Shown piece by piece: positions 8,356-53,992 of a stretch of 64,000 nt of DNA (positions are counted from its first letter, which is position 1; the number at the start of each line of letters is the position of its first letter). The stretch is from Microbacterium suwonense (GTDB lineage: Bacteria; Actinomycetota; Actinomycetes; Actinomycetales; Microbacteriaceae). The notes under the pieces were generated by a model. That model saw nothing but the letters and a program-made list of their open reading frames with translations. It was not told where the DNA came from and did not search any database. A program made the translations under genes and the position numbers. Where the stretch lies: contig NZ_AP027728.1 in NCBI RefSeq assembly GCF_030296555.1, positions 930,001 through 994,000 of the forward strand, given 5' to 3'.

Positions 8356-10466
8356 TCAGTTCGTGCGTTCGAGCACGGCGCGAGTGCTGGCTTCTGGGCT
8401 GAGATCGATGCGGCGCAAGAGCTGGGCATTCAGCGCCACGACGATCGTCGACAGCGACATCAGAATCGCTCCGACCGACATCGGCAGCACGAACCCGACG
8501 GGGGCGAGCACACCGGCGGCAAGCGGCACCGAAATCAGGTTGTACCCGGCCGCCCACCACAGGTTCTGTTTCATCTTGCGGTAGGCAGCACGTGAGAGTT
8601 CGATCACTGAGAGCACCGAACGCGGGTCAGAGCTGGCGAGGATCACCCCTGCCGACGCGATTGCCACATCGGTGCCCGCCCCGATAGCGATACCAACATC
8701 GGCTTGCGCGAGGGCGGGGGCATCGTTGACACCGTCGCCGACCATCGCGACAGCCGTGCCTTCGTGCTGCAACTCGGCCACCTTCGCGGCCTTATCTTCG
8801 GGGCGCACGCCCGCGAACACACGGTCGATACCGAGTTCGCGAGCAACCTCCCCGCGACGGCTGCAGCGTCACCGGTGATCATCACGACCTCAACACCGAG
8901 CCGATGCAGTGCGGCGAGGGCATCGCGCGACTCCGGGCGAATCTCATCGGCGAGCTTCAGCCCGCCGATCATGATTCCGTCACGAACGACATGCAGAATG
9001 ATGGCACCTTCGGCCCGCCAGGCATCGGCTGCACCGATCTCGGGCTGCCCGGTTTCTTCCAGAAGCCGGGGCCCACCGACCCGAATCTCGTGGCCGGCCA
9101 CGGTGGCGGTGACGCCAACCGCCGGTGAAGAAGAGAACCCGGTGGCGGGTGCAAGGCTGAGGCCTCGGTCGCTCGCCGCGGCGACGATCGCTTTGGCGAG
9201 GGGGTGCTCGCTGTCGGCCTCGGCCGCGGCGGCCAGGGCCAGCAGGGCGTGCTCGTCAACATCGCCGACTGGCGCGACACCGGTGACAACCGGTTCGCCC
9301 TTGGTGAGTGTGCCCGTCTTGTCGAAGAGCACCGCGTCGACTTGGCGCATCGTCTCGAGCGCGAGCCGATCTTTCACGAGCACCCCGCCGCGAGCCGCGC
9401 GCTCGGTGGCGATGGAAACCACGAGCGGAATCGCCAAGCCGAGCGCGTGCGGGCAGGCGATCACTAGCACGGTAATGGTGCGCATCACGGCCGCATCTGG
9501 GTCGCCCACGAGCATCCAAACGATCGCGGTGATGACCGCTGCGGCGAGGGCGAACCAGAACAGCCACCCTGCAGCCCGGTCGGCGATGCGCTGCGCACGA
9601 GACGACGAGTTCTGTGCGTCGGCGACGAGTCGGTTGATGCCGGCAAGTGTCGTGTCGTCTCCGATGGCGGTGACTCTGACCCGCAGCCCCGAATCGGTCG
9701 CGACCGTGCCGGCGGTCACCGCATCGCCCTCGCTGCGGGTCGCGGGGTGCGATTCGCCGGTGATCATCGATTCATCCATGGCCGCACGTCCGTCAACAAT
9801 CATGCCGTCGGCCGGCACACTGCCGCCCGGGCGCACGATCACGAGATCATCAACGCGCAACTCCGCCGGGCTCACCGTGACGGCCGTTTCACCCTCGACC
9901 CGCTCGGCTTCGTCGGGCAAAAGCGCCGCGAGGGAGTCGAGCGCAGAAGTGGTCTGGGCGAGCGAACGCATCTCGATCCAGTGCCCGAGCAGCATAATGA
10001 CCACCAGCAGCGCGAGTTCCCACCAGAATTCGAGCTCGTGATGCAACAGCCCGAGTGTTGCGCCCCACGATGCGAGGAAGGCCACGGTGATGCCCAGGGC
10101 GATCAGCAGCATCATGCCCGGTTTGCGGGCCTTGATTTCGCTCACCGCGCCCGTCAAGAATGGGGAGCCGCCCCAGACATACATCACGGTGCCGATAACA
10201 GGTGCGATCAAGGTGGCCCAGCCTGGTACTGAATAGCCGAGGATCATGGCAAACATTGGCGAGAACGCGACGACTGGCACCGCGAGCACGAGATTCACCC
10301 AGAACAGGCGCCGAAACTGTGCCACATGATCGCCGTGGCCGCCGTGACCGCAGTGGCCCATATGGCCAGCGTGACCATCGTGATCCTCGTGCCCAGTGCG
10401 CTCATGGTGCTCGTGGCCACTGTGAGGCCCGTGGTCGTGCCCGTGGCCCGCGTGTGGCTTCGTCAT
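8356..10466 (-). CDS. copB: CopB-type P1B-3 ATPase with CPH motif, frame interrupted
   Basis: When one base is restored this reads as a 703-residue ATPase. The N-terminus is a metal-binding tail with about sixteen histidines in the first fifty residues. Then come TGESHPATR, the membrane motif C338-P339-H340 typical of the CopB (P1B-3) group, [30 protein letters not shown] and [17 protein letters not shown]. The frame breaks in a run of four C at 8850-8853; one extra base gives the expected [16 protein letters not shown]. The ATG at 10466 begins [13 protein letters not shown]; the longer open frame upstream belongs to a copA remnant. Family members export copper, often Cu(II) or silver. csoR follows. 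Confidence 0.88.
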
Positions 10467-10504
10467 GGGCGTCTTCTCTCGGCTGGGCGACCGGGCCCGG
10501 TGTG

Positions 10505-10694
10505 CTAGGCAGCCTGCTTGGTGATGGACGTGAAGCCGCGCAGACGCAGGCTGTTGCCAACGACGAAGACGCTCGAGAACGCCATCGCCGGCGAGCATTG
10601 GGTTGAGCATACCGAACGCTGCGACCGGAATCGCTGCCACGTTATAGGCGAACGCCCAAGACAGGTTCGTCTTGATGGTGCCGAGCGTCTTGCG
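10505..10694 (-). pseudogene. CopA-type ATPase, C-terminal remnant
   Basis: The minus strand reads RKTLGTIKTNLSWAFAYN, then VAAIPVAAFGMLNPMLAG, the last membrane-helix region of CopA-type Cu(I) ATPases; after a frame change near 10588 it continues as MAFSSVFVVGNSLRLRGF and ends ITKQAA with a TAG at 10505-10507. Only about 60 residues survive and a TGA lies just upstream, so the gene is broken. It sits 38 bp before the copB start on the same strand, which suggests that copA-copB-csoR once formed one operon whose first gene was lost when the island's right part was rearranged. Confidence 0.75.
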
Positions 10695-10827
10695 TCAGAG
10701 TCGGATCACATCGACAGCGCTCCGCAGATCGCCGCGCTACTGCCTTTACTCACCGACCTTCAAGCAGTTCGTCTTCCGACCCAGACTTGTAGAGCGAATG
10801 GCAGAAGCTGTTGAGAAGTACCAAGCG
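10695..10827. other. Unassigned spacer at the copA break
   Basis: Between the broken copA tail and the end of the orphan HTH gene lie 133 bp in which I see no coding pattern on either strand, no clear repeat and no promoter. It is probably the scar of a deletion or insertion. Confidence 0.4.
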
Positions 10828-11286
10828 CTACTTTGCCGTGCGCCGGTCGAAAAAGGTTCGGTCAAAGTCTGACGGGTTGCAGAGGAGATCGAGTGCCGTC
10901 GCACTGGCGGCGTGACTAGAACTGTCACCTATCCGTGCAGCACTCCCCACCGCCTCTGCGGCTTCCTCGATTGTGAGCCCTTGCTGACGGCGCACGACTT
11001 TGTTTCGGGTGAGGTGCTTCGAGACCGTCGCGCGGTGCACACCATACTTCTGAGCCAGGTATCCGACACTGAGGCCAGCGAGGTAGTCGTCGACCAAGCG
11101 GTCTACTTCAGCGGGGGTGAGAAAGGTTTGAGGTTTCCCAATCCTCCTGACGCAGGGCCCTCTCACGTCTTGAATGGGAGCGCTACCGACCCGCTGCGAT
11201 ACACGGTATACGCCTCGTTTCCAGCGAGAAATCAACGATTTCAGCTTCGGGGTGGGGCTTGAGAACTGTCTACGTAGGGACCCCAA
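10828..11286 (-). CDS. Orphan helix-turn-helix protein, recombinase-type
   Basis: An open frame of 152 codons (TTG at the far end; true start uncertain). Residues about 52-105 form two helix-turn-helix units of the kind found at the C-terminus of invertases and resolvases: LTPAEVDRLVDDYLAGLSVG followed by YLAQKYGVHRATVSKHLTRN, then RRQQGLTIEEAAEAV. After that the sequence loses similarity (SAARIGDSSSHAAS), so the end may be out of frame or truncated. No catalytic serine domain is present. Proteins like this occur as free-standing genes next to mobile elements in actinobacteria; its function is unknown. It stands at the right edge of the island. Confidence 0.6.
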   Translation of the reverse strand: MGSLRRQFSSPTPKLKSLISRWKRGVYRVSQRVGSAPIQDVRGPCVRRIGKPQTFLTPAEVDRLVDDYLAGLSVGYLAQKYGVHRATVSKHLTRNKVVRRQQGLTIEEAAEAVGSAARIGDSSSHAASATALDLLCNPSDFDRTFFDRRTAK

Positions 11287-11287
11287 C

Positions 11288-11319
11288 GAAGCCCCAGGGT
11301 TCTCATGCCCTGGGGCTTC
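11288..11319. terminator. Strong hairpin with no upstream gene
   Basis: GAAGCCCCAGGG (11288-11299), an 8-base loop, and CCCTGGGGCTTC (11308-11319) form a perfect 12-bp stem, followed on the plus strand by a pyrimidine-rich CTCCTTCCC. It looks like a factor-independent terminator, but no gene reads into it: the neighbours point away on both sides. It may be what is left of the terminator of a gene displaced when the island arrived. Confidence 0.6.
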
Positions 11320-11402
11320 CTCCTTCCCTCGACAGAGCCCGCCCGGATGCGCGAAGACGCCTGGATGCGCCGCGACCCGCAGAGGCTGGATAGCATCGAA
11401 TC

Positions 11403-12252
11403 ATGCCTTCGCACGTCCGCCCTGCCACCGCCTCCGACCTGGAGGCGCTGTCCGGCATCGAGACCGCGGCGGACGTGCTGTTCGAGCCGCTGTTCGGGCC
11501 GACCGACTGGGGCACTCCCCTCCGGTACGGAGCGGCTGAAGAAGCCGGGCTTCATCCTGGTCACGGCCGAGCAGGAGAACGGGCCGGCCATCGGCTTCAT
11601 CCACGTCATCGAGCACGACGAGGGCGCCCACATCGAACAGCTGTCGGTGCACCCGGGCCACGCGCGACGCGGACACGGGACAGCTCTGCTCCACGCGGCG
11701 ATCGATGAAGCAGGGCAGCACGGCGCGACGACGCTGACATTGCGCACTTACAGCGATGTGCCCTGGAACGCGCGGTTCTACGCGGCGGCGGGCTTCCGCG
11801 AGGCGGACATCCCCGACAGCGAGTTCCACCGCGAACTCTCCGCAGCCGAGCAGCGACTCGATCTCGCCCGGCACGGGCGCCGCGTGCACATGGAGCTCCA
11901 GCTGGGCATGGAGCTGGACGCCGAGACCTTCGAGAAACTCGTGGTCGATGAACTGGATCGGCTGCCCGATGACATGGTGGACGGCCTGGAGAACGTCGTG
12001 TTCGTGGTCGAGGACGCGCCGGAGAACGGTGAGGATCTCTTCGGGCTGTACGAGGGCTTCGCCCTCACCGAGCGCGGACAGTACGGGCTGGGCGAGCTCC
12101 CCGATCGCATCATCGTGTACCGGCATGCGCACCTGGCGGCCTGCCGGACCGAAGACGAGCTGCGGGACGAGATCCACACCACCCTGGTGCACGAGATCGC
12201 CCACTTCTACGGGATCGACGACGCGCAGTTGCACGAGCTGGGGTGGGCATGA
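11403..12252 (+). CDS. GNAT acetyltransferase joined to a zincin-like metallopeptidase, frame interrupted
   Basis: Residues 1-168 are a GNAT acetyltransferase (MPSHVRPATASDLEAL at the start; acetyl-CoA loop SVHPGHARRGHGTALL). Residues about 169-282 are a small zincin of the PF06262 type, with the zinc motif HEIAHFYGIDD and the tail DAQLHELGWA. The frame breaks at a C run (11517-11520): removing one C gives DWGTPSGTERLKKPG. There is no stop between the two parts; in most relatives I know of they are separate proteins, and an internal ATG at 11909 could start the peptidase alone. The end overlaps clpS by ATGA, and the zincin-clpS-DUF2017 order is usual for this group. Confidence 0.75.
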
Positions 12253-13015: not shown

Positions 13016-13021
13016 GCTCGG

Positions 13022-18298: not shown

Positions 18299-18594
18299 TG
18301 CTCCTCCCCCAGGATCGCGGTGACCCGGAATCGGCCGTCCACGGCATCCGGTGCGTTCTGCAGCACCTGTTCGTGGGTGAGCGTCTGACCGACCTCGTCG
18401 GGCCGGAAGACGTTGCTCATGGCGATCGGATGGCTGGTCGCCGGCACATCGGCGGTCGCCACCTCCGAGACCTTGGCGATGTTGTCGACGATGACGTCGA
18501 GCTGACCGGTCAGCTGCGTCACCTCGTCGTCGGAGAGCTGGATGCGCGCGAGCACGCCGAGATGGCGCACGAGATCGGGGGTGATTTCAGACAC
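18295..18594 (-). CDS. gatC: Asp-tRNA(Asn)/Glu-tRNA(Gln) amidotransferase subunit C
   Basis: A 99-residue GatC, with the family pattern [17 protein letters not shown] and the C-terminal [19 protein letters not shown] that wraps around the GatA-GatB interface. The GTG start follows a likely -10 element TAGGAT (minus strand, at 18601-18606) by only a few bases, so the message may be nearly leaderless. First gene of gatCAB. Confidence 0.95.
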
Positions 18595-18638
18595 CGTTCC
18601 ATCCTATTCGCGCGCCACGTGCTCCGCGCCGCTCCCCG

Positions 18639-18705
18639 CCCGTCTATATGGCGCCAATGCCCGCGAAACGCCGGTGAACCCGTGCACGCGCGCCAGATAG
18701 ACGGG
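18639..18705. repeat. 16-bp inverted repeat between gatC and the acyl-CoA synthetase
   Basis: CCCGTCTATATGGCGC (18639-18654) and GCGCCAGATAGACGGG (18690-18705) are inverted copies with a single mismatch, 35 bases apart. It lies between two divergent genes. It could be a dispersed palindromic repeat, a small non-autonomous element or a double operator; no coding is present. Confidence 0.6.
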
Positions 18706-18743
18706 TTCGAGAGGAGTCGTGTGCGGGCACGTAAGCTGGGCGG

Positions 18744-20446
18744 GTGACGACGTTCGATCCCCCTCGCCCGTGGACCGCAAGCTACGCGGAAGGGGTGCCC
18801 GAGGATCTGCCTGCGGTGTCCGGCTCGCTGATCGACATCGTCGAAGCCTCCGTGCGCGACTATCCGGATGCCCCGGCGCTGCAGTTCTTCGGTGCGGAGA
18901 CCACCTACAGCCGGATGCAGGACGCCATCGCCCGCGCTGCGGCCGGGCTGCGTGATCAGGGTGTGCGCGCCGGCGACCCCGTCGCCATCGTGCTGCCCAA
19001 CTGCCCGCAGCACATCATCGCGTTCTACGCGGTGCTGCGGCTGGGCGCGGTGGTCGTCGAGCACAACCCGCTCTACACCCTCGCGAGCTGCGCAAGCAGT
19101 TCGAGGACCACGGCGCCAAGCATGCGATCGTGTGGAGCAAGGTCGTCGAGACCGTGCAGCAGTTCCCCGCCGACCTCGCCGTGAGCAGCCTGATCTCGGT
19201 GGATGTCACCACGGCCATGCCGCTGATGACCCGCCTGGCACTGCGGCTGCCGGTGAAGAAGGCGCGCGAAGCGCGCGACGCGCTGACGACGAAGGTGCGA
19301 GGAGCGCTGTCGTGGGAGTCGATCCTGGCATCCGCCCCGCTGCCCGCGACCCACCCGCGCCCGCAGACCGACGACCTGGCGATCATCCAGTACACCTCCG
19401 GCACCACGGGCACGCCGAAGGGCGCTGCGCTCACACATCGCAATCTGCTCGCCAACGCCGCCCAGGCGCAGGCCTGGGTGCCGTCGATCACGCGCGGAAA
19501 CGGATGCGTGGTGTACGCGGTACTACCGATGTTCCACGCCTACGGGCTCACACTGTGCCTGACCTTCGCGATGTCGATGGGCGCCCGCCTGGTGCTGTTC
19601 CCGAAGTTCGATCCGGATCTGGTGCTGGAGGTCACGAAGAAGCACCCGGCCACGCTTCTGCCACTGGTGCCGCCGATCGCGGAGAGACTTCTGTCCGCGT
19701 CCAAGGAGAAAGGCATCCCCCTGACGGGCACTCAGGTCGCGATCTCGGGGGCCATGGCGCTCGCGCACGAACTGGTGGTGCCGTTCGAGCAGGCTTCCGG
19801 CGGCTATCTGGTGGAGGGCTACGGCCTGAGCGAGTGCTCTCCCGTGCTGATGGCGAACCCGGTCGCCGAGAACCGCGTCGCCGGCACCGTCGGACTGCCG
19901 CTGCCGGGCACGGAGTGCCGAGTCGTGGATCCCGAGAACCCCACCGAGGACGTGCCGGCCGGTTCTGCCGGCGAGCTGGTCGTCCGCGGTCCCCAGGTCT
20001 TCTCGGGCTACTACGGCAAGCCCGAGGAGACGGATGCCGTGTTCGTGGACGGCTGGTTCCGCACCGGCGACATCGTGACGATCGACGAGGCCGGGTTCGT
20101 GCGCATCGTCGACCGGATCAAGGAGCTGATCATCACCGGCGGCTTCAACGTCGCCCCGACCGAGGTCGAAGGCGTGCTGCGTCAGCATCCGGATGTCGAG
20201 GATGCCGCGGTGGTCGGCCTGCCGAGCGATCACTCCGGTGAGGAGGTCGTCGCGGCGGTCGTCATCGACGGCGGCAAGGATGTCGATGTCGAGGCGATCC
20301 GCGAGTTCGCCCGCGGCATCCTCACCCCGTACAAGGTGCCGCGCCGCATCTTCGTGGTCGACGAGCTGCCGACCTCGCTGATCGGAAAGGTGCTGCGGCG
20401 CCAGGTGCGGGAGAAGCTGATCTCCCTCACCTCGTCCGACGGCTGA
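18744..20446 (+). CDS. Long-chain fatty acid-CoA ligase (AMP-forming), frame interrupted
   Basis: With one base restored, a 567-residue adenylate-forming enzyme. The AMP-binding P-loop is IIQYTSGTTGTPKGAALTHRN; further motifs are VEGYGLSECSPV, DGWFRTGDIV and the C-terminal SLIGKVLRRQVREKL with the catalytic Lys. The frame breaks in CCC at 19078-19080: one more C gives NPLYTPRELRKQFEDHGAK. It starts with GTG (MTTFDPPRPW). The enzyme joins a fatty acid to CoA through an acyl-AMP intermediate. It stands alone between gatC and the helicase, so no pathway partner is visible. Confidence 0.88.
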
Positions 20447-22811: not shown

Positions 22812-25138
<2,327 letters not shown>

Positions 25139-25285
25139 CTAAGAGCGGGGTCCGACATCCCCTAGTTGCGCCATCCCCTACCCGCACACCCTCGGAGTTC
25201 TGCACAGATTCGGAGAAGACCAACGGATCGGGTCCGAGATCGTGCAGATCTCCGAGCCTGCGCCGAGGGGGATGCTGGCCGGAGG

Positions 25286-26383: not shown

Positions 26384-26393
26384 GGGCTCCAGT

Positions 26394-27569
26394 CTACGAG
26401 CGCGAGGCTGACCGGGGGCCGGATGCCCGGGCGTACACGTCGGCGATCACCGCGAGCACGGCGTCGACATCCGCATCCGCAGAGGTGCGGCCCAGCGTGA
26501 AGCGCAGCGCGCTGCGGGCGTCCTGCTCGGTGCGGCCCATCGCCAGTACGACGTGCGAGGGCTCGGCGACACCCGCTTGACAGGCCGACCCTGTGGAGGC
26601 GGCGACGCCGGCCATATCGAGCAGGAACAGCAGGCTCTCCCCCACCGCGCCGGGGAACAGCACATGCGCGTTGCCCGGGACCCGGTCGACCGGGTCGCCG
26701 AGGAGCTCGGCCTGCGGCACGGCCAGACGGATGCCGGCGATCAGCCGTTCGCGCAGTGCGAGCAGCCGGACGCTCTCGGCCTCGAGCTCCTTCGCCGACT
26801 CCTCCAAAGCGACGGAGAACGCCGCAGCGCCGGCGACATCCTGCGTCCCTGCCCGCAGCCCGCGCTGCTGGGAGCCGCCGTGCAGCAGCGGACTCAGGCG
26901 GGCCGAGCGCGCCACGACGAGCGCTCCGGTGCCGACCGGTGCCCCGATCTTGTGCCCGGCGACGCTCATCGCCACCAGTCCCGCCGCCGGTGGCGCCTCG
27001 CCGCGCAGCATCCGGAAGGACAGCGGGATGTGCCCCCACGCCGCCACCGCATCCAGGTGCAGCGGCACGCCGGCTTCCGCCGTGGAACGAGCCAGCGCCG
27101 GAGCGTCGTTGATCGTGCCCGCCTCGTTGTTCGCCACCAGAGCCGTTGCGACAGCCGCGCCGTCCAGTGCGGCGGCGAACGCCTCGGCATCGATGCGTGC
27201 GACCGCATCCACGGGGACCGCGCGCACCGCAGCACCCTCCGCCGAGAGCGCGGAGACGGTGTCCATCGTAGCGTGATGCTCGGCATCCGGCAGCACGATC
27301 GCATCCGCTTCCGCCGCGCGCGAGCGCCACAGCCCGTGCAGCGCCAGGTTGATCGACTCGGTGCCGCCCGAGGTGAAGACCACCTCGATGGGGTCGCACC
27401 CCAGCACGGCGGCGGCACGCTCGCGGGATTCCTCGAGCACCCGGCGCGCATCCTGCCCCGCACCGTGGGTCGACGAGGCGTTTCCGACGACCTCGGCGGC
27501 GGCCAGCCATGCCTCCCGGGCCGCCGGTCGAAGCGGGGAGGTGGCCGCATGGTCGAGGTAGAACCGCAT
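26394..27569 (-). CDS. Cysteine desulfurase (NifS/IscS type)
   Basis: A 391-residue PLP enzyme. The N-terminus [15 protein letters not shown] is typical; the PLP lysine is in [19 protein letters not shown], the phosphate-binding [12 protein letters not shown] is near residue 70, and the persulfide-forming cysteine is in STGSACQAG. The start at 27569 has AGGAGG directly before it and replaces a longer open frame. It supplies sulfur to MnmA (10 bp downstream) and perhaps to Fe-S proteins. Confidence 0.93.
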
Positions 27570-27675
27570 CCTCCTATTCTCGCGCCTGCGGGAGCCACTC
27601 AGTCCGAGACCGGGAATCACCGATGCCGGCACCCGGATTCACGTCCGCGCACCGCACGGCTCTAGGCTGTCTCCC

Positions 27676-29799: not shown

Positions 29800-31871
29800 G
29801 TGGCATCACGAACCGCTCATGAACCCGCGGCGCTGAGAAGCCCCGCCAGGATTCCACTGCGGCCTGCCGCCGAGACCGATCCGCCCGCCGGGGTGCGTGC
29901 GGGCCGGATCCCGCTGTTCTCCCCGACTCCGCATGTGCCGCAGGGATACTCCCCCAAGGCGTTCGTCGGCGAGGTGGTGCCGTTCGGCGTCGTGGCGTTC
30001 CGCGAGGGGCATGACCGCATCGGCGTGCATGTGAGGCTGGTCGACCCGGCCGGCACGGAGTCGCTGCACCGCCTCACCCCCTTGCCGACGGCACCGATCG
30101 CTGGCGCACCGAGATCGCCCTGGATGCCGCCGGCGACTGGCGTTATCGCTTCGAGGGCTTCGCCGACGATTTCGCCACCTGGTCGCACGCGGCGCAGGTC
30201 AAGGCCGAGGTCGGCGTCGACATCGCCGTGATGAGTGCGCTGGGCGCCTCACTGCTCTCAGCTGCGGCCGGTGAGAAGGACCGCCCCGCTGCCGAGCGCA
30301 CACTGCTGCGCACTGCCGCCAGGCGGCTGCGAGAGGCGGATGCCGAAACCCTGTCGGCGGTGTCGACGGATGCCGCACTCGCCGCCGCGTTCGCTGATCG
30401 CCCACGCGCCTCCCTCGGCTCGGTGACCGACTGGCTGACGCTGACCGTGGAGCGCAAACGTGCAGGCGTCGGCTCCTGGTACGAGTTCTTCCCCCGGTCG
30501 GAGGGCGCCGTGCGACGGCGGGACGGCACCGTGCGCAGCGGCACGTTCCGCACCGCGATCAAGCGGATTCCCGGCGTGGCGGGGATGGGGTTCGACGTGC
30601 TCTATCTCGTGCCGGTCCATCCCATCGGCCAGACCAACCGCAAGGGCCGCAACAATACGCTGGTCACCGAGCCCGGCGATCCGGGCTCGCCGTATGCCAT
30701 CGGCTCCCCCGACGGCGGCCACGACGCGCTCCATCCCGAGCTCGGCACCGAGAAGGACTTCCGCGCACTGCTTCGCGCCGCGCAGAAGCACGGGTTGGAG
30801 GTGGCGCTCGACCTCGCGCTGCAGGCATCGCCGGACCATCCGTGGGTGAGCGAGCACCCCGAGTGGTTCACGACACTTCCCGACGGCACGATCGCCTTTG
30901 CCGAGAATCCGCCGAAGAAATACCAGGACATCTACCCGCTGAACTTCGACAACGACCCCGCAGGGATCTACGCCGAGATGCTGCGCATCGTGATGCACTG
31001 GGTAGGGCTCGGCGTGAAGATCTTCCGCGTCGACAACCCGCACACCAAACCGCTGCAGTTCTGGGAGTGGCTGATCGCGCAGGTGCGCTCCGCCGAGCCG
31101 GATGTGGTGTTCCTCGCCGAGGCCTTCACCCGGCCCGCCGTGATGCGTGCGCTCGCAGCCGTCGGATTCCAGCAGAGCTACTCGTACTTCACCTGGCGCA
31201 ACACCAAGGCGGAGCTCGAGGAGTTCCTCACCAGCGTGTCGCACGAGACCAGCGACTATATGCGGCCGAACCTGTTCGTGAACACGCACGACATCCTCAC
31301 CGAGTACCTGCAGTTCGGCGGACGGGCGGCCTACCGCATCCGTGCCTGCATCGCCGCGACGGCGGCGCCGGTGTGGGGCGTGTACGCGGGGTACGAACTG
31401 ATCGAGAACGTCGCGCGCCCGGGTTCCGAGGAGAACATCGACAACGAGAAGTACGAGTTCAAATTCCGCGACTGGGAGGGCGCCGAGGAGCGCGGCGAAT
31501 CCCTGGCCCCGCTGCTGAGGCGGCTCAACGAGATCCGTCGATCCCACCCTGCACTGACGCAGCTGCGCAACATCGCCTTCCACTGGAGCGACGACGACTC
31601 GGTGCTGGTGTACTCCAAGCATCTCGACGGGGCGTTCACCGGCACCGGTCGCAGCGACACGGTGATCGTCGTCGCGAATCTCGATCCGCATTCGGTGCGC
31701 GAGACGACGGTGCACCTCGACACGCGCATCTGGGGCATTCAGCCCGGTGATGGCTTCGAGGTGGAGGATCTGATCACGGGCTCGATCTGGACGTGGAGCG
31801 ATCACAACTACGTGCGGCTCGACGCCTTCGCCGAGCCCGTGCACATCCTGAGGGTGAAGGAGCGATCATGA
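29800..31871 (+). CDS. glgE: Alpha-1,4-glucan:maltose-1-phosphate maltosyltransferase GlgE, frame interrupted
   Basis: With one base restored, a 690-residue GH13_3 enzyme that adds maltosyl units from maltose-1-phosphate to glucan chains. Motifs: YSPKAFVGEVVPF at the N-terminal domain, VGSWYEFFPRSEG, VPVHPIGQTNRKGRNN, nucleophile Asp in IFRVDNPHTKPLQFWEW, acid Glu in VFLAEAFTRPAVM and NLFVNTHDILTEYL. The break is in the run of five C at 30077-30081; a sixth restores RLTPLADGTDRW. The GTG start at 29800 gives a normal N-terminus. It ends with an ATGA overlap into glgB. No treS or maltokinase gene is in the window, so its donor must come from elsewhere. Confidence 0.93.
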
Positions 31872-34079: not shown

Positions 34080-35018
34080 TCAGAACAGCAGCGAGGCCAG
34101 GCGGGTGCGCGCCGCGGCGACCCGCGGGTCGCTGGATCCGACGAGGTCGAACAGCTCGACGAGCCGTTCGCGCACGGGCGTGCGCTGCTCGGGCTCGACG
34201 GCAGCGAACAGGTCGAGCAGGCGAGAGAACGCGTCCTCGATGTGGCCACCGGCAAGGTCCAGATCCGCCACCTGGAACTGCGCCTCGAGATCCGTCGGGG
34301 CGGCGGCCGCGGCGGCCCGCACCTGCTGCAGATCCAGTCCCTGCACGCGATCCAGCAGCCGCACCTGGCCGAGTCCGGCCTTGGCGTCCTCGTCGCGCGG
34401 GTTCTCCGCCAGCGCACGCTGATAGGCATCGATCGCGCGCGCGTAGTCGCCTTCCTCGATCGCCGCGTATGCCTCGGCGTGCAGCGGCGGCATCGGAGCC
34501 TCGTGCGGCTCCTCGGCCTCCTCCGCTCCCGCAGCGTCGCCGACGGGAACCGACCCGGTCACGCCGTTCTGCGCGGCCACCTCGAGCAGACGGGTGAAGA
34601 CCTCGCGCACCTGTGCCTCGGGCACGGCTCCGGTGAACATCGGCACCGGCTGGCCGCCGATGAGCGCGACGACCATCGGGATCGACTCCGCGCGGAAGGC
34701 CTGAGCGATCTGCGGGTTGGCGTCGACATCCACCTTCGCGAGCATGACCCGGCCATTCAGCTCACGGGTGACCTTCTCGATCACCGGACTGAGCTGCTTG
34801 CACGGGCCGCACCACTCCGCCCACAGGTCGACGACCACCGGGACGGTGCGCGACAGCTCGAGGATCGAATTGAAGGTGGCATCCGTCACATCGACGACGA
34901 CCCGCCCCGATTCGGGTTCCGCGGTGCTCTGCGCTGCGGACTCCGGGGCGGCGGCACGGCCACGCAGGCTGGACAGGTCGACGGCACCACGAAGGGCCGC
35001 GGCAGAGATCTCGGTCAC
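34080..35018 (-). CDS. Thioredoxin-TPR co-chaperone-like protein (CnoX/YbbN type)
   Basis: A 312-residue protein with a disordered 45-residue head, a thioredoxin domain (VVVDLWAEWCGPCKQLSPVIEKV, active site CGPC) and a C-terminal tetratricopeptide-like part (AYAAIEEGDYARAIDAYQRALAENPRDEDA onward). This layout is that of YbbN/CnoX, a holdase that protects proteins in oxidative stress and works with GroEL and DnaK. It starts with GTG overlapping the stop of the upstream gene, so the two are translationally coupled. Confidence 0.87.
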   Translation of the reverse strand: MTEISAAALRGAVDLSSLRGRAAAPESAAQSTAEPESGRVVVDVTDATFNSILELSRTVPVVVDLWAEWCGPCKQLSPVIEKVTRELNGRVMLAKVDVDANPQIAQAFRAESIPMVVALIGGQPVPMFTGAVPEAQVREVFTRLLEVAAQNGVTGSVPVGDAAGAEEAEEPHEAPMPPLHAEAYAAIEEGDYARAIDAYQRALAENPRDEDAKAGLGQVRLLDRVQGLDLQQVRAAAAAAPTDLEAQFQVADLDLAGGHIEDAFSRLLDLFAAVEPEQRTPVRERLVELFDLVGSSDPRVAAARTRLASLLF

Positions 35019-36814
35019 TTGATCACCTTCACACTGAGGAGGTCCTGATGGTACGCCAGCAGGCGGATCTGCTGGTTCGAGCCCTGTGCGGGCACGGCGA
35101 AGAACAGCTGGATGCCGTAGGTAGTGATATAGCCCTTCGATGACTCCGTCGCACCCGTGAGCGCCTTGGCCTGCGCATCGGTGCCGAATCGGATGACGGC
35201 GTCCGGATTGGTGGGCGTGACGGTCTGGGTGTCGTCGACGCTCACGGCGACGACAGCACCGCTGCCGAGTGTGGCCAGCGACAGCGGTTCGTAGTCGGCG
35301 GGAGTCATCTTGAACTCCGCCTTCGACGTCTTGTCGGCCTTCGCATCCGCTGCCTTCTGCACCACGGCCGCACGACTGTCGCGCACGGCCTTGGCCAGCT
35401 GCCCGGCGACGTCGTCGAAGTCTCCGGCGTACTCGCTCTTGTCGCCGGCATCGACGAAGTCGGAGAATGCCCCGGCGAGCTCAGCAGGCGGCAGGGACAG
35501 GAAGGCCGATTCGGCGGGCACGCGGGTGGTGCCGAGCCAGGCAGGCGCCACCTGCGGGAACTCGCCCGATGCAGGCATCTCCGCCATCGAAGTCACTCGG
35601 TATGCAGCCCACGGGTCGACCTGTGTCATGGTCACCAGCACGGGCGGCTTGGTCTCGTCCTCGGCGGCCGTCAGCGCCAGCACGTTGCGCGGCCAGCTCT
35701 CGGTCGCCTCGGGCAGCAGAATCGGCACCTTGCCGGCCGGGCTCAACAGCGTCGTGTCACGATCCTCGATCTTGCTCCGCAGCGTGTACTCGGTCTTGCG
35801 CGCCGCCAACGCAGCCCCGGTCAGCCGCGTCTCCGCGAGGAAGCGTCCAGAGCGGCATCCGCGTCGGCGAGCGTCGCGGCGATCTCGCCGACGATGCGCT
35901 GTCCCTGCTTCTGGGTGACCACGGGCTGCTTCTGATTCTCGGGGGTGACCACCGTGGCCGATGGCGTCGGAGTGGGTGTGCCGCCGTCGAACTGCGGCCA
36001 GGAATCCGCGGTGCAGCCGGTGGCCAGCACGCCGGTCAGCGCCAGCGCGGGCAGGGCGATAGCCAGACGCCGCCGGGGTGGCAAGGAGCGCTGTGCGCGT
36101 CCCGGATCGGCATCCGCGACTCCGGCGATCTCGGCATGCTCGGGCATCGTGATCGGCTGGGTCTCGGGCAGCGGACCCGGCCCCTTCCGACGCGGCCCCC
36201 GACCACGACGCTGATGGCGGATGCCAAGGATGTAGAGCACGATGCCCGCCGCGAGGAGAACTCCCCGGCGACCATCAGCGGGCCCGCCCACGGAGTGCGC
36301 GTGTCCAGCGCCCATGACACCAGGATGTTCGAAGGCGCCGGCTGCACGCCGTCCCTGGCGATGAGCACGCCGTTTCCCTCGGGGAGCTGCATCTCGGCCA
36401 CCAGTGCGTCCTGGTCGGCGAAGGAGTCCAGCCAGAGGTCGGATCCCACCGGTGAGCGTCCGGAGGTCTCGCCACCCTCGGCCGGGGGCAGCTGCGCATC
36501 CACATGCGCGGTCTTCGGGTTGCCGGACTTGGTCAGCGTGACTCGGTCGTACGCCGTGTCCGAAAGCCAGGCCTTCATGTCGTCGGTGCGGCCATATGCG
36601 ACGAAGATGTCGCCCTTCCTCGCACCAGCAGCGTCTGCAGGCCGGTGTGCGCACGCAGCACATCGGCGTCCACGAGCACGTATGGCGTGGGCTCATCGAC
36701 AGACAGCTCCATCCGCTGCTCGGTGGGGCCCATGAAGATGGTCCGCTGAGCGATTCCCGCTCCGATGAGAACCGTGGCCAGCACGAAGGCCACGACGGCC
36801 CATACGAATCGCAC
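35015..36814 (-). CDS. Membrane protein of unknown function, frame interrupted three times
   Basis: Three one-base losses, near 36618-36622, at 36263-36266 (CCCC) and near 35840-35845, split one 600-residue protein. It begins with a signal-anchor (MRFVWAVVAFVLATVLIGAG), has an extracytoplasmic region (MELSVDEPTPYVLVDADVL), a second helix (GVLLAAGIVLYILGI), a basic cytoplasmic loop, a third hydrophobic stretch that ends in a lipobox-like GVLATGC (Cys codon 36013-36015), a Pro/Thr-rich linker, and a soluble C-terminal domain of about 330 residues. I do not recognise the family. The internal lipobox leaves open that a separate lipoprotein starts near residue 200. Its stop overlaps the co-chaperone start. 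Confidence 0.65.
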
Positions 36815-36976
36815 GAATCAACTCCTTACGTGACCGCGGGCATCCGCCGACAGTCTCCGCTCGACATTTCAGACTATCGAAAGCACCTGTGCATTGCCCA
36901 CGAGCATTCTCCCGCATGCCCTGCGCCTCTGATCGACCTGGACTATTAGGCTTGCTCGCATCCGACCGGGAGAACG

Positions 36977-38392: not shown

Positions 38393-39066
38393 CTACCACC
38401 AGTGATTGCGGGTCCAGAACCCGTACGCGTTCGCCCAGCTGCCGTAGCGTCCGATGGCGTAGCCGCTCCCCCACCGCAGGTTGTCGACCGGGTTGTAGCC
38501 GTTTCCGGGAACCTTGCTGCACGGCAGCGCCTGGACGAGTCCGCAAGCGCCGGAGGATCGGTTCGTCGCGTTCGGGTTCCAGCCGCTCTCGCGTGAGACG
38601 ATGTAGTCGACGTATCCCCAGTCGCTCTGGGCGATGCCGGCCGCCGTCATCCACTGCTCCTTGCTGCCGCCACCGGTGTACTTCGGCCGTGCCGCACTGC
38701 CGCCGCCCCGGATCCGGTCGACGCCGTCTGCGGCTTGGGCTTGGGCTTGGGCTTGGGCTTGACGTACACCTCGAAGGACCCGCGCTCGACGGGCTCGATG
38801 GCAGCGCCCTCCACGGTGACCGTGAGGTCCTGAGTGTCGTCGACGGCGAGCGAGAAGGCTGTGACCGTGTTCTCGGCTGATGCGCTCGGGTCCGCCACTG
38901 CGGTGCCGGTCGGAGCGAGCAGAGCGGCCGAGAAGCCGATCACGGCGAGGCCTGCGCCGAAGGCACTGAGGCGCCGGCGCAAGGGGATCCTCTTCGCCGG
39001 ACGGGACGCGTTCGGGCGCGTCGAGTTCGATATCGATTCGTTATCGGGAGTCACGATGGCCATCAT
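38393..39066 (-). CDS. Secreted transglycosylase-like protein, frame interrupted
   Basis: With one base restored, a 224-residue exported protein. Basic head, signal helix (LSAFGAGLAVIGFSAALLAP) and cleavage near TAVADPSA; a G5-like region (ENTVTAFSLAVDDTQDLTVT); a Lys-Pro repeat coded by five exact 6-bp units; and a C-terminal lytic-transglycosylase-like domain (YVDYIVSRESGWNPNATN with the catalytic-type Glu, SGACGLVQALPCSKVPG, YGSWANAYGFWTRNHWW). The break is in CCCC at 38706-38709; one more base gives a Gly-rich hinge. Such proteins cut peptidoglycan, as aggregation-promoting and Rpf-like factors do. Confidence 0.8.
38732..38761. repeat. Five tandem 6-bp units coding Lys-Pro
   Basis: GGCTTG is repeated five times without change; on the minus strand it encodes the KPKPKPKPKP linker of the secreted transglycosylase. 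Slippage would change linker length in steps of two residues without shifting the frame. Confidence 0.85.
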
Positions 39067-40969: not shown

Positions 40970-41523
40970 TCAGACCTCGAGGAGCTCTGCCTCTTTGCGC
41001 TTGAGCGCGTCATCGATCGCCTCGACGTGCTGACGGGTGAGAGCGTCCAGCTCCTTCTCACCGCGGGAGACCTCGTCTTCGCCGATCTCGGCCTTCAGCG
41101 CGTCGAGCTCGTCCTTCGCCTTGCGGCGGATGCCGCGCACGTGCACTTTGGCGTCCTCCCCTTCGAGCGCACCAGCTTGACGTACTCCTTGCGACGCTCC
41201 TGAGTCAGCTCGGGCATCGTCACGCGGACGATGTTGCCGTCATTGGTGGGATTCGCGCCCAGATTCGGCATGTCGCGGATCGCCTGCTCGATCGCTCGCA
41301 GAGCCGACTTGTCGTACGGGGTAACGATCAGGGAGCGCGCCTCGGGGTTGGCCAGCGAGGCCAGCTGTGCCAGCGGTGTGGGCGACCCGTAGTAATCCAC
41401 CATGATCTTCTGGAACAGCTGCGGATTGGCGCGCCCGGTGCGGACCGTGGCGAAGTCCTCCTTGGCGGCTTCGACCGCACGCGTCATGCGCGCGGTGGTT
41501 TCGGCGAGGACATCCGCGATCAC
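40970..41523 (-). CDS. frr: Ribosome recycling factor, frame interrupted
   Basis: With one base restored, a 184-residue RRF (normal length). [31 protein letters not shown] is cut here to its landmarks: [28 protein letters not shown], and the helix end [14 protein letters not shown]. The break is in CCCC at 41158-41161; one more base gives [23 protein letters not shown] start with AAGGAG before it, and a TAGAAT -10 element at 41554-41559 (minus strand). RRF with EF-G frees ribosomes after termination and is essential. Confidence 0.95.
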
Positions 41524-42405: not shown

Positions 42406-42411
42406 GAGGTG

Positions 42412-43238
42412 TTATGCGCCGACCTTGAAGCGTGCGAAGTCGGTGATGGTGATACCGGCATCCTTCGCGACCTGGCTCACGGACAGCTTGTTGTCCTTCG
42501 CGTAGTCCTGCTCCAGAAGAGCGACCTGCTTGAAGAAGGCGGTCACACGACCCTCGACGATCTTCGGCAGAGCGGCCTCGGGCTTGCCCTCGTTGCGCGA
42601 GATCTCGGTGACGATCTCACGCTCCTTCTCCACGTCGGCTGCGGGAACGTCCTCACGGCTCAGGTAGGACGGGTTCGCGAACGAGATGTGCTGCGCGATA
42701 CTCCGTGCGGTCTCCGCGTCGTCACCGGTGTAGGCGACGACGACGCCGATCTGAGGAGGCAGATCCTTGCTGGTGCGGTGCAGGTACACCGAAAGCGCGT
42801 CGCCCTTCAGCGTGCGCGCCCGGCGCAGCTCGACCTTCTCGCCGATGATCGCGGCCTCATCCGAGATGAGCTGCTCGACCGTCTGGTCGCCCGCCGGGGC
42901 GGCCAGAGCTGCCTCGAGGAGTCCGCGGCCACTGCTGCGACGGCATCCGCCACCTTGTCCGCGAGGGTGATGAAGCGGTCGTTCTTCGCGACGAAGTCGG
43001 TCTCGCAGGCGAGCTCGATCAGCGTGACGGCGTCGGCGGTCTCCCGCGCGGCGACCAGACCCTCGCTGGTGGAGCGGTCGGCGCGCTTCGCGTTGCCCTT
43101 GGCACCCTTCAGGCGCAGGATCTCGGTGGCCTTCTCGACGTCTCCGTCTGCCTCCTCGAGCGCCTTCTTGGTGTCGACCATTCCCGTTCCGAGCTGCTCG
43201 CGCAGCGCCTTGATGTCGGCGATGGTGAAGTTGGCCAT
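42412..43238 (-). CDS. tsf: Elongation factor Ts, frame interrupted
   Basis: With one base restored, a 275-residue EF-Ts. N-terminal UBA-like part [20 protein letters not shown], the signature [17 protein letters not shown], and C-terminal [18 protein letters not shown]. The break is near 42918: one more base gives [21 protein letters not shown]-Ts reloads EF-Tu with GTP and is essential, so the break is probably a sequence error. AAGGAG precedes the ATG; rpsB lies 45 bp upstream. Confidence 0.95.
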
Positions 43239-45193: not shown

Positions 45194-46098
45194 TCAGGCC
45201 CGAGGGTGCGCGATCCGGTAGGTGGCGGTGAGCCGCTCGGCCGAGACGTGCGTGTAGATCTGCGTGGTGCCCAGACTCGCGTGGCCGAGGATCTCCTGCA
45301 CCGCCCGCAGGTCGGCCCCGCCGTCGAGCAGGTGCGTCGCGGCGGAGTGGCGCAGTGCATGCGGGCCGACATGCTCGGCGCCCACGATGGGGCCGAGCAC
45401 GCGCGCGACGAGGGCATACACGGTGCGCGGTCCGATGCGCGCGCCACGGGCGCCGAGGAACAGTGCGGGCCCGGCTGCACCGTCGTTTCGGGTGCGCAGC
45501 GCGGGCCGCCCGCGAGTGAGGAAGCCCGCAAGCGCAGCAGCCGCGGGGACGCCGAAGGGCACCACTCGCTCTTTGGCGCCCTTGCCGAGCACGCGGACGG
45601 TGCGCCGGTTCAGATCGACATCGTCGACGTCGATGCCGCACAGTTCGGAGACCCGGATGCCGGCTGCGTAGAGGAGCTCGAGGATGGCATGATCGCGCAA
45701 TGCGATAGGATCGCCTCCCTCCGCGGCGATCCGCTGCTCCTCGAGCAGATTCTGCACGCCCTCGGCGGAGGCCACGACGGGCAGCGTCTTCCTCGCCTCG
45801 GAGTGACCAAGCGCAGACTGGGGTCGGCATCGACCCTGCCGGTGTCATGCGCCCAACCGAAGAACGATCGCACAGCGGCGGCACGACGGGCGAGAGTGGC
45901 TCGCGCGTCGCCCCGCTGCGTCGCCTGCCAGAGCCAGTCGCGCAGGGCCTCCAAGTCGATCTCACCGAGATCGATGTCGTGGACGGCGCGCTGCAGGTCG
46001 GCCAGATCCGACCGGTATGCGCGCACGGTCGACGGCGAGAGCCGGCGCACCTGAGCCAGATGCGTCACGAACTCGTCCACAGCATCCGAGTACCTCAC
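45194..46098 (-). CDS. xerC: Tyrosine recombinase XerC, frame interrupted
   Basis: With one base restored, a 301-residue Xer recombinase. N-terminal SAM-like domain (VDEFVTHLAQVRRLSPSTVRAY), catalytic Arg in LYAAGIRVSELCG, HALRHSAATHL, the second His in GHASLGTTQ and nucleophile Tyr in IYTHV. The break is near 45793; one more base gives TPRRRKTLPVVASAEG. GTG start at 46098. It resolves chromosome dimers at dif with XerD. Its place behind dprA is usual for actinobacteria, so it is not a phage integrase. Confidence 0.92.
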
Positions 46099-46165
46099 CC
46101 TTCCAGAATGCCGGGTGCGGCCAGCGCGAGCCGGCTCCCGCGCCGCAGCACCCTGCGGATGCCGC

Positions 46166-47343
46166 TCAGGCGATCCTGCGCCATCCGTCGGAGGTCTGAC
46201 CGACGACGCCCTCCAGCGCCAACAGCCCGAGCAGGCTCTGCACCCTGCCGACCGCGAGCCCCGACCTCCGGGCGAGCTCGTTCGCATCACGAGGGGTGCG
46301 TGAGCTCAGTGCGTCCCGCAGCCGGATCCGCTCGGGGTTCTCCGCCGTCGACGACGACTGCTCCCCCGGCGCAGAGTCCCCCACAACTCGCGCACCTCCT
46401 GAGCCGAGGTCACGCAGATGGCGTCGTATTCGCGCAGCAGCCGATGGCAACCGGCCGATGCGCCGGAGGAGACCGGCCCCGGCACCGCCCCGATCGGCCG
46501 CCCGAGCGCCGCCGCATGGCCGGCCGTGTTGAGCGATCCGCTGCGCCACCCGGCCTCGACCACCACGGTCGCCAGCCCGACAGCGGAAATCAGTCTGTTC
46601 CGCTGCAGAAATCTCCATTTGGTGGGTGCGCTTCCGCAGGGCACCTCGCTGAGCAGCACTCCGCTGGCGCGAATCCGGTCGAACAGCTGCTGGTGGCCCA
46701 TCGGATACGCGCGATCGATGCCACCGGCGAGAAAGGCGACCGTGTTCCCTCCGACGCCCAGCGCCGCTCTGTGGGCTGCGCCATCGATGCCGTATGCGCC
46801 TCCAGAGACGACCACCGTCCCCGACGCCGCCAGGTCTCCGGCAAGGTCGGCGGCCACGGATTCCCCGTACGGAGTGGCCGCTCGCGCACCCACGATCGAC
46901 ACTGCGGGGACGTCGGCGAGCACCTGCGGGTCACCCCGGGTCCAGAGCACCAGCGGCGCATGCACGCCCAGATCGTCCAGCCCGGACGGCCAGCTCTCAT
47001 CGCCCGGGAGCAGCAGCCCTCCTCCCACCTCATGACAGGACTGCATCGCATCCAACACCGCTTGCGTACGCGCGCGCGGCTGCCAGCGCGCACGAGCCTC
47101 GGCGAAGGCGAGGGGATCCACCACTCCCGGAGTGAGCAGCTCCTCCTCGCAGAACGCCTGCTCCAGAGCGGTCGGCGCCCCATGCGCGGCGATGAGCGCG
47201 CCGGCCACACCGTCGCCTGGCTCGACGAGCACCGACCAGGCGGCGCGCGCTATCACCTCGGCAGGATCGGCATCGGGTCTCAGTCGCTGCGCTGCGGCGG
47301 GCAGCCGGTGATCGTTCAGCAGCTGATTTCTCTTGGCGCTCAT
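46166..47343 (-). CDS. dprA: DNA-processing protein DprA, frame interrupted
   Basis: With one base restored, a 392-residue DprA/Smf. The Rossmann core has VSIVGARAATPYGE, VVVSGGAYGIDGAAHRAAL and FLAGGIDRAYPMGH. The C-terminal winged helix (RTPRDANELARRSGLAVGRV, LLALEGVVGQTSDGWRRI) comes after the break in the C run 46378-46382. DprA binds single-stranded DNA and loads RecA on incoming DNA. The ATG overlaps the comM stop. Confidence 0.94.
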
Positions 47344-51100: not shown

Positions 51101-51174
51101 GTGCTCTCTCTTCTACGATCGCGTCGCACGATGGCGGCATCTACAAGGTTCGCACATCGACGCTCAGACGACAG

Positions 51175-51201
51175 AACCCCGGGACGCAGTGTCCCGGGGT
51201 T
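51175..51201. terminator. Terminator hairpin after rplS
   Basis: AACCCCGGGAC, loop GCAGT, GTCCCGGGGTT: a perfect 11-bp stem 21 bp past the rplS stop and 75 bp before the lepB start. It should end the rplS message, leaving lepB-rnhB under another promoter or partial read-through. Confidence 0.8.
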
Positions 51202-51222
51202 CCGTCGAAATGCGCTGGCTGA

Positions 51223-51567
51223 TCAGCCGCGCTTCTCCTTGATCTTGGCCTTCTTGCCACGGAGGTTGCGCAGGTAGTACAGCTTGGCACGGCGAACGTC
51301 GCCGCGGGTGACGACCTCGATGCGCTCGATCACCGGCGAGTGCACCGGGAAGGTGCGCTCCACGCCCACCTGGAAGCTGATCTTGCGAACGGTGAAAGTC
51401 TCACGCACACCATCGCCCTGACGGCCGAGGACCACGCCCTGGAACACCTGGACGCGCGAACGCGATCCCTCGGTGATGTTGACGTGCACCTTGACGGTGT
51501 CACCGGGGTTGAAGACAGGAATGTCGGAACGGAGCGATGCCGCGTCAACGGCGTCGAGGATCTGCAT
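51223..51567 (-). CDS. rplS: 50S ribosomal protein L19
   Basis: A 114-residue L19: [20 protein letters not shown], the core [20 protein letters not shown] and the end [16 protein letters not shown]. The ATG at 51567 starts at the usual family N-terminus. A promoter stands at 51699-51726, giving a leader of about 125 nt. L19 lies at the 30S-50S interface. Confidence 0.96.
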
Positions 51568-51698
51568 GATCGTCTCTCTCTGCACTCGCCACAGGTCGGG
51601 TGCATGATTCAAAGGAATAAGAACGGGTGCGTGCCGAGCGGCGCAGAATGCGTCCGCGGGTTCCCCTGAGGCAGAACCGGTTCACGGCACAAACATCT

Positions 51699-51726
51699 AT
51701 TCTGCCATGAACCCGACCCGCTTCAA
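51699..51726 (-). promoter_or_regulatory. Candidate rplS promoter
   Basis: On the minus strand TTGAAG (51721-51726) and CAGAAT (51699-51704) are 16 bp apart. The stretch GGCAGAATAGA around the -10 also occurs upstream of rpsP (minus strand, about 56177-56187), which suggests a shared ribosomal-protein promoter type. Confidence 0.45.
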
Positions 51727-51737
51727 AACCAGTCGGA

Positions 51738-52226
51738 TCACCGCCGAGTCCGGCGCTCCTCGATGATGACCACGTCGGGTTCGCGAGACGGCTCGCGGCG
51801 ATCGGCCCGCGATGACGCGGACCAGCTCACCGTCTCGCGCACGCGCAGACCGGTGCCGCGTGCCTCGTTCCACAGCTGCCACAGCTGCAGCCAGAACAGT
51901 GCGACTGCGGTGACGATCGCTCCCGTCAGCAACCATCCGAAACCGCCGTCCAGAAACAGGCCGACCGCGATGGTCAGGGCATGCCAGACCGCGAAGCCCG
52001 CGACATCCCACCAGGACAGCGCACGTTCAGCGCGCACGGAAGGACGCGAGCGGGTGAGCAGGGTGAGCACGAGCTGACCGCCGAAGACCGCCGGCATCGC
52101 CATCAGCAGCACCCACAGCAGACTCCAGGCGCTCTGCCCGAAGATCGCCCAGCCGACGAACAGCCACAGCGGCAGCAGGAAGGCCGCCGGCAGGAGCCAG
52201 CGGAAGAACGCCTGACGCAACCACAT
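51738..52226 (-). CDS. Membrane protein of unknown function
   Basis: A 162-residue protein with four predicted membrane helices (LLPAAFLLPLWLFVGWAIF; LLWVLLMAMPAVFGGQLVL; DVAGFAVWHALTIAVGLFL; LLTGAIVTAVALFWLQLW) and a basic cytoplasmic tail of about 40 residues. I do not recognise a family. It overlaps the candidate rplS promoter region at its 3' side and is divergent from map. Confidence 0.65.
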   Translation of the reverse strand: MWLRQAFFRWLLPAAFLLPLWLFVGWAIFGQSAWSLLWVLLMAMPAVFGGQLVLTLLTRSRPSVRAERALSWWDVAGFAVWHALTIAVGLFLDGGFGWLLTGAIVTAVALFWLQLWQLWNEARGTGLRVRETVSWSASSRADRREPSREPDVVIIEERRTRR

Positions 52227-52329
52227 GCTCCGATGTTACGTGCGCCCCCTTCTCGGACGACGGGTGTTCGCTGTGAGCTTGTCCAGCACGGCATCGGAGA
52301 GAATGGATGCTGACGAGAGGATCTTCCCC

Positions 52330-53112
52330 ATGATCGAACTGCGCACACCCGCTGAGATCGACGAGATGCGAGCCGCCGGCCGCTTCGTCGCAGAGACACT
52401 GGCGACGCTGCGCGCAGAGACGAAGGTCGGCACGAATCTGCTCTCGATCGACCGCCACGCACACGATCTGATCCGCAAGGCCGGCGCCGAGTCCTGCTAC
52501 ATCGACTACGCGCCGTCGTTCGGGAACGGGCCGTTCGGAAAGGTCATCTGCACGTCGGTCAACGATGCCGTGCTGCACGGCCTTCCGCACGACTACGTGC
52601 TGCGCGACGGCGATCTCGTCTCTCTCGATTTCGCCGTCTCCGTCGACGGCTGGGTAGCGGACTCCGCAGTGTCCTTCGTCGTGGGGGCGCCGCGTGACGA
52701 GGACCTGCGCCTGATCGACACCACCGAGCGCGCACTGGATGCCGCGATCGCATCGGCTGTGGTCGGCAACCGGGTCGGAGACATCTCGGCATCCATCGCC
52801 GCCGTCGCACACGGTGCGGGATATTCGATCAACACCGACTTCGGCGGCCACGGCGTGGGCCGCATCATGCACGGCGACCCCCATATCCCCAATGACGGCC
52901 GCGCTGGTCGCGGATTCCCGCTGCGCGAGGGGCTCGTGTTCGCCCTCGAGCCGTGGCTGCTCGCCACCACCGACGAGCTGCGGACGGATGCCGACGGCTG
53001 GACGCTGCGCAGCGCAGACGGCTCGCGTGGCTCGCACTCCGAGCACACCGTGGCAGTGACCGCCGATGGCCCGATCATCCTCACCGACCGGAGCTTCCTC
53101 GGCGTCGACTGA
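52330..53112 (+). CDS. map: Type I methionine aminopeptidase
   Basis: A 260-residue MetAP. Metal ligands lie in LVSLDFAVSVDGWVADSA (Asp, Asp), FGGHGVGRIMHGDPHIPND (His), LVFALEPWLL (Glu) and SHSEHTVAVT (Glu). The ATG at 52330 follows GAGAGGA. It removes the first Met from new proteins. It stands alone here, away from the usual secY-adk-map order, so it may be a second MetAP of the genome. Confidence 0.93.
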   Translation: MIELRTPAEIDEMRAAGRFVAETLATLRAETKVGTNLLSIDRHAHDLIRKAGAESCYIDYAPSFGNGPFGKVICTSVNDAVLHGLPHDYVLRDGDLVSLDFAVSVDGWVADSAVSFVVGAPRDEDLRLIDTTERALDAAIASAVVGNRVGDISASIAAVAHGAGYSINTDFGGHGVGRIMHGDPHIPNDGRAGRGFPLREGLVFALEPWLLATTDELRTDADGWTLRSADGSRGSHSEHTVAVTADGPIILTDRSFLGVD

Positions 53113-53253
53113 CGCCCGCCCACCCGACACGCCCGTGCTCTTCGTACCCTGCGCGACCGCTCGGGTGACTCATCTGGTCCCCTCCCCGACACGGATGCGG
53201 CGATTCGGGTCACACGAGGGAGATCATCGGGGCCGGAGGACGATCAGCGAGGG

Positions 53254-53992
53254 TCAGGACGCGCGGTAGACGTAGACATCGGTGATCTGCGGCAGCTCGA
53301 ACTCGTCGCGACCCGCCGTCTCGGGGTCGGTGTCGAGGATGCGTTCGATCTCGGCTACCATGCGCGTGCGCTCGCGATCGGATGCGGCGAGGAACGAGCT
53401 GACGGTCAGCCAGCGCGCGATGTAGTCAGCCCGTCCGATCCGCTCGCGCCAGGGCACCTGCACGAACCGGGGCGGCTCGAACCCGGTCAGGTGCTCGGTG
53501 CTCTCCGCTGATGCGGTCAGTCCGTTCTCCAGCGCGGGGTGCGCGACGCGCGTGCAGGCGCGGTCCCAGGTACAGGCGGCATCGGAATGGTTCCACAGCA
53601 GTCCGAGGGTGCCCCCCCCGAGCGAGAACCCGCCGGATCTCGGCACAGGCCGGCTCGCGGTCGAACCAGTGGAAGGCCTGCGCGGCGGTGACGACGTCAA
53701 CGGAGCCGTCGGCGGCGGGAATCGATTCGGCCGTGCCGAGGTGCACCTCGACATCGGGGAGCTTGGTGCGCAGCACGGCGAGCATCGGCTCGGACGGCTC
53801 GACCGCGATCACGTGCTCGGCGCGGTCGAGCAGAAGCTCGGTGAACTTGCCCGTTCCTGCGCCCAGATCAAGCGCGGTGCGCACAGGTGTCGGAATGACA
53901 GCATCCGCCGCCGCATCCGGGAACCCGGGACGGAAGCGTTCATAGTCCTCCCCCGCATCGAGGAACGACTTCGCCAGCATCCGATCAGCCAT
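53254..53992 (-). CDS. Class I SAM-dependent methyltransferase, frame interrupted
   Basis: With one base removed, a 245-residue methyltransferase. SAM motif TALDLGAGTGKFTELLLDRA, then VIAVEPSEPML and VDVVTAAQAFHWFD, a pattern of the small-molecule methyltransferase group that includes UbiE-like and Tam-like proteins. The break is a run of eight C (53612-53619): seven give RVLARGGTLGLLWNHSD. The substrate is unknown. Confidence 0.8.

Follow-up and report, generated by a model that had tools for sequence, protein, structure and literature searches.

How can a bacterium live with ligA, tsf and frr each split by a shift in reading frame? The question is raised by a 64,000-nucleotide stretch of the Microbacterium suwonense genome (positions 930001-994000 of the single 3,163,981-base contig; called the window here), for which the original prediction listed single-base insertions and deletions splitting at least fourteen genes, essential ones included, and explained them as errors of the assembly consensus. 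Judging from the assembled sequence alone, we hold with very high confidence that the breaks are such consensus errors, in which C/G homopolymers were called too short, and the split genes, essential ones included, would almost certainly be whole in the living bacterium. The explanation stands because the breaks occur everywhere that was sampled, are overwhelmingly one base short, depend on run length and fall in single-copy essential genes, and because runs in ribosomal RNA (rRNA) are shortened as well.

Five Microbacterium relatives (G001, G002, G004, G005, and G014) supplied syntenic 60-kb stretches for comparison with the window. Genes were predicted in these stretches with codon-scored models, chosen over a first set of models that antisense shadow open reading frames (ORFs) had confused, and the relatives' proteins were searched against the window by tblastn. 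A break was scored wherever the match to a single protein switched frame, and its interval is approximate, being given by the ends of the tblastn matches. The area around secA (C1:1230001-1290000) served as a second region of the same genome. As a second detector, we used a hidden Markov model (HMM) based on codon-usage scores, which were trained on genes of the five relatives. The homology search gave 33 merged breaks, of which 27 (13 in the window and 14 in the secA region) were kept because they were seen with at least two relatives or were also called by the HMM; the other six, each seen with one relative and without an HMM call, were discarded. A k-mer comparison of the genome with the relatives was dominated by base composition and was not used. 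The closest matches of the LigA fragment were from Microbacterium, with at most 90% identity, and the search tool's description suggests that this genome represents its species in the collection searched.

Homology placed 2.87 breaks per 10 kb aligned in the window and 2.80 in the secA region, compared with 0.19 to 0.63 and 0.20 to 0.47, respectively, in the five relatives. The HMM called 64 breaks in 284 kb of the genome, sampled as twelve stretches with at least 2 breaks in each; in the relatives, it called 5 breaks in one 300-kb set and 7 in another set of equal size. The control on the five relatives shares the genes used for training; a separate control on ∼485 kb of 22 named loci, taken from other records, gave 9 breaks. 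These rates (∼2.3 per 10 kb versus ∼0.2 in the controls) extrapolate to roughly 700 frame breaks in the whole genome, of which about 60 would be false calls of the method. In the secA region, 10 breaks were common to both detectors, while 4 of 14 HMM calls had no homology break and 4 of 14 kept homology breaks had no HMM call. Most breaks are not common to the relatives, whose genes are mostly intact at the same places. Protein genes and rRNA were both examined, and the fault was found in all twelve stretches and in the rRNA, as expected of an artefact that is spread over the genome, coding or not.

The direction of the breaks is nearly uniform: 61 of the 64 HMM breaks are of the one-base-short type, a dominance of false deletions, and the remaining three include the breaks in a GNAT/zincin gene and in a methyltransferase gene. 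The breaks had been placed mostly in C/G runs, and this holds for 21 of the 27 mapped breaks, which have a C/G run of at least four bases within or adjoining the interval (2000 random placements gave a mean of 3.9 and never as many as 21). Each break was attributed to the longest C/G run of its interval, its exact base not being known, and the methyltransferase was excluded (leaving 26 of the 27 breaks); by this rough estimate, true C/G runs of 3, 4, 5, and 6 bases are undercalled in 0.1%, 0.8%, 14%, and 86% of cases, respectively, so that the error rate rises with run length. Six-base C/G runs are depleted accordingly in number, with 3 in 284 kb compared with 0.67 to 2.0 per 10 kb in the five relatives; the 284 kb hold five C/G runs longer than five bases, three of them six bases long and two of them eight, with no run of seven.

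The rRNA genes offer a comparison that does not depend on translation. The relatives have one run of six G in the 23S gene and another in the 5S gene, read as G6 in 14 of 14 cases (seven places in the five relatives). In M. suwonense, these runs read G5 in both copies of both genes (4 of 4), and two five-base rRNA runs common to G001 and G004 are also called as five. Shortening of G6 to G5 with five-base runs kept is predicted by run-length-dependent undercalling and not by pseudogenes or frameshifting ribosomes. Among 99 Microbacterium genomes searched, the 23S G5 form was found in one, namely the genome studied here, and the G6 form in 81; the remaining 17 hold neither exact string. The two 23S copies of M. 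suwonense (L139 and L142) differ by one substitution.

Essential genes are indeed among those split, since ligA, tsf, and frr are broken in comparison with the relatives. The PF00889 matches for tsf consist of two adjoining pieces only and the PF01765 matches for frr of two pieces only, compared with one piece for each family in 23 of 23 other genomes. PF01653, the adenylation domain, gives two adjoining matches that belong to one ligA gene, and it matches nowhere else in the genome. Outside the window, secA is split likewise (G000:C1:1256311-1256317). The original prediction had named intact second copies of ligA, tsf, and frr as part of what would count against consensus errors; no second copy of these genes or of secA turned up when the genome was searched by family.

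C/G homopolymers were called one base short in every sampled part of the genome (probably two bases short at one site, and too long at another), and the source data were presumably error-prone long reads, nanopore-like, assembled without accurate polishing. This is a well-known kind of artefact, here in a heavy case. In the excerpts of the Homopolish report, the errors that survive polishing are mainly homopolymer insertions and deletions that shift reading frames (PMC8011154); in those of the Kastor report, false deletions predominate and are commonest after four- to five-base runs (PMC12007338); and the description excerpted from Polypolish is in line with such assembly errors (PMC8812927). 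As far as these excerpts go, nanopore-only assemblies resemble the M. suwonense genome in their systematic frame-shifting homopolymer errors and in split genes being counted as pseudogenes (PMC8011154, PMC12007338, PMC8812927). They differ in that A/T runs dominated in the Kastor example (PMC12007338), whereas C/G runs are affected in this high-G+C genome, and in that one context, GGGGGAG, has lost bases here beyond the run-length expectation. A literature search found no paper joining Microbacterium with a nanopore homopolymer frameshift fault.

Within the window, proteins of the relatives locate a frame break at 13 of the 14 listed sites. The GNAT/zincin site lies outside the relatives' coverage and rests on the HMM, a Pfam match, and database homologues. 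The 14 break sites thus hold up, but they fall in twelve genes and not fourteen; repair by exactly one base also holds at most sites, the probable exception being the GNAT/zincin gene. The HMM recovered 12 of the 13 homology-mapped sites in the window (ligA was missed) as well as the GNAT/zincin site.

On the minus strand, copB (heavy-metal/copper P-type ATPase, ∼8383-10547) is broken at 8835-8850, where two frames align with one intact 735-amino-acid protein of G014 that matches TIGR01525/TIGR01511; the HMM call is at 8851. The GNAT/zincin gene (plus strand, 11403-12252) is broken at 11511-11521. Its Pfam GNAT match begins only at profile position 31, Zincin_1 also matches, and the N-terminus of the homologues agrees with the other frame (N-termini read for 30 of the 120 homologues listed). 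Of the 30 best database homologues, 23 have 283 to 286 amino acids; the gene measures 850 nucleotides from start to stop, whereas six homologues of 283 amino acids imply 852, and their local WGxPPSG pattern fits the same reading, so that two bases are most likely missing here.

Two further breaks are on the plus strand: the long-chain-fatty-acid-CoA ligase gene (∼18430-20446) is broken at 19064-19079 with 5 of 5 relatives, with one extra base in all 20 relative sequences that align at the site and a match of the intact relative to NF004114, and glgE (∼29800-31871) is broken at 30078-30084 with 4 of 5 relatives, the intact relative matching PF11896 and PF21702. All other sites are on the minus strand. 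The break in ligA (∼22815-25129) at 23096-23102 lies ahead of the part encoding the C terminus and was seen with 4 of 5 relatives. A gene for a membrane protein of ∼650 amino acids (∼35015-36829) is broken three times, each with 4 of 5 relatives: at 36614-36617 (called run of 3), at 36264-36291 (called run of 4), and at 35839-35881 (longest C/G run in the interval, 2). An SLT-domain/aggregation-promoting-factor-like gene (∼38396-38997; PF01464 and NF052397 on the relative) is broken at 38680-38761 with 4 of 5 relatives, while frr (∼40973-41523; break at 41143-41164) and tsf (∼42412-43238; break at 42891-42963) are broken with 5 of 5. In the xerC-type tyrosine recombinase gene (∼45194-46290), the break at 45775-45790 (4 of 5 relatives) leaves Phage_int_SAM_1 and Phage_integrase in separate ORFs, and in dprA (∼46172-47343; TIGR00732 on the window ORF), the break at 46366-46381 is supported by one relative (G014) and the HMM. 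Finally, the class I methyltransferase gene (∼53254-53992; Methyltransf_11) is broken at 53595-53619 with 5 of 5 relatives (tblastn interval 53595-53612), and the break runs opposite to the rest of the listed sites.

Four observations weigh against consensus undercalling of C/G runs as the whole explanation. In six of the 27 mapped breaks the interval lacks a C/G run of four or more bases, the methyltransferase gene is one base long at its C8 tract (53612-53619), and in-frame stops inside aligned segments are slightly more frequent in the secA region than in the relatives (5 positions versus 1 to 4). The fourth is that bases were lost in 8 of 20 occurrences of GGGGGAG compared with 9 of 83 other five-base runs (P = 0.004; in both groups, a four-base run no more than 7 bases from a mapped break was counted as a shortened one), a difference that cannot be put down to run length alone.

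The excess loss may stem from the way the base-caller handles this context. It is possible but quite unlikely that it reflects a chemical modification of a chromosome-polar motif in the living cell that makes the base-caller drop a base; if so, the errors would mark a segregation or orientation motif that is modified. On this side of the chromosome the motif has almost entirely a single direction. CTCCCCC/GGGGGAG occurs 176 to 1 in 600 kb of the five relatives oriented like the window (L110-L124 and L143-L157), and a count over 27 named loci, from Microbacterium and other Actinobacteria, gave 170 to 6 for GGGGGAG. In M. suwonense, the heptamer reverses its direction twice, once somewhere from 0.55 to 0.93 Mb and once from 1.85 to 2.45 Mb (with small counts per stretch); dnaA is at 2.466 Mb, and on either side of the dnaA region GGGGGAG is directed away from it. 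By its polarity, GGGGGAG is an AIMS/KOPS-like motif, and a (T/C)GGGGGAG core is described as "architecture imparting sequence" in Corynebacterium in the excerpted text of PMC2830990. The breaks favor CTCCCC over GGGGAG on the plus strand (9 versus 0 intervals). A technical strand effect was considered for this bias and rejected; it stems from the genome, because the relatives show the same motif polarity and its direction flips by replichore.

Among the readings that would make some or all of the breaks real, the one that fares best concerns a single site. Phase-variable contingency loci also have a C/G tract whose length sets the frame, and the methyltransferase C8 tract could be such an on/off switch, a minority of true biology amid the errors. 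In the 284 kb, no other called gene contains a C/G run longer than 6, and the direction of this break is opposite to that of most breaks. A tract of this length is, however, absent from the site in all five relatives, where a conserved long tract would be expected, and a second C8 tract (L158:14011), likewise C on the plus strand, lies outside any called gene, fitting a miscalled long run. The other mapped breaks differ from contingency loci in lying in short runs or none, several of them in housekeeping genes. We therefore regard a switch at this site as very improbable.

Real mutations, by which many genes of a mutator or decaying lineage would have become pseudogenes, are extremely unlikely. 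In favor of this reading, the written sequence does contain the breaks, the genes of the relatives are mostly intact there, and raw identity to G014 is somewhat lower in broken genes (median of 72.4, versus 77.6 for intact genes), with the slight surplus of stops around secA pointing the same way. Against this, the loss strikes essential genes without a second copy, where decay would be expected in dispensable genes under relaxed constraint, and rRNA runs are short in both operons. Relative to the differences among the relatives themselves, no faster divergence of broken than of intact genes was seen (−6.5 versus −7.9 points; 16 versus 41 genes; P = 0.72), and in-frame stops inside aligned segments of the window are not in excess (12 positions, versus 5 to 15 in the relatives).

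Widespread programmed ribosomal frameshifting, which likewise makes one protein from two frames and would read through the breaks, has a vanishingly small probability: CTCCCC/GGGGAG does recur in 17 of 56 break neighborhoods (1.9 expected), but it does not predict the shift as a fixed slippery signal would, being mostly unbroken (59 + 19 occurrences in 124 kb, 78 altogether, versus 9 + 0 break intervals), most breaks are not common to the relatives, and the rRNA is also affected, where no ribosome could read around a deletion.

With consensus errors as the preferred explanation, ∼700 breaks would mislead gene counts, pseudogene counts, lists of "missing" essential genes, and estimates of completeness and contamination, and would likewise mislead searches for programmed frameshifts or phase-variable tracts in this genome. 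Comparing the 23S and 5S run lengths with those of the genus is a quick check for such a fault that needs no reads and can be used on other genomes.

The discarded homology breaks were at 25129-25284, 26388-26431, 27574-27584, 36914-36971, and 52300-52322 in the window and at 7800-7896 in the secA region. Two additional HMM calls in the window, at 678 and 3140, had no homology confirmation. The call at 3140 sits in an uninterrupted P-type ATPase ORF and was taken as false; around 678 there is a possible further frame break on the minus strand, in a translation that we take to resemble the remnant of an IS3-type transposase. Positions 1-12000 of the window have a G+C content of 0.61 to 0.65, versus 0.67 to 0.70, and hold two further P-type ATPase genes, a cupin gene, an alcohol-dehydrogenase-like gene, and a gene for a Crp-type regulator; this part looks like an acquired metal-handling island.

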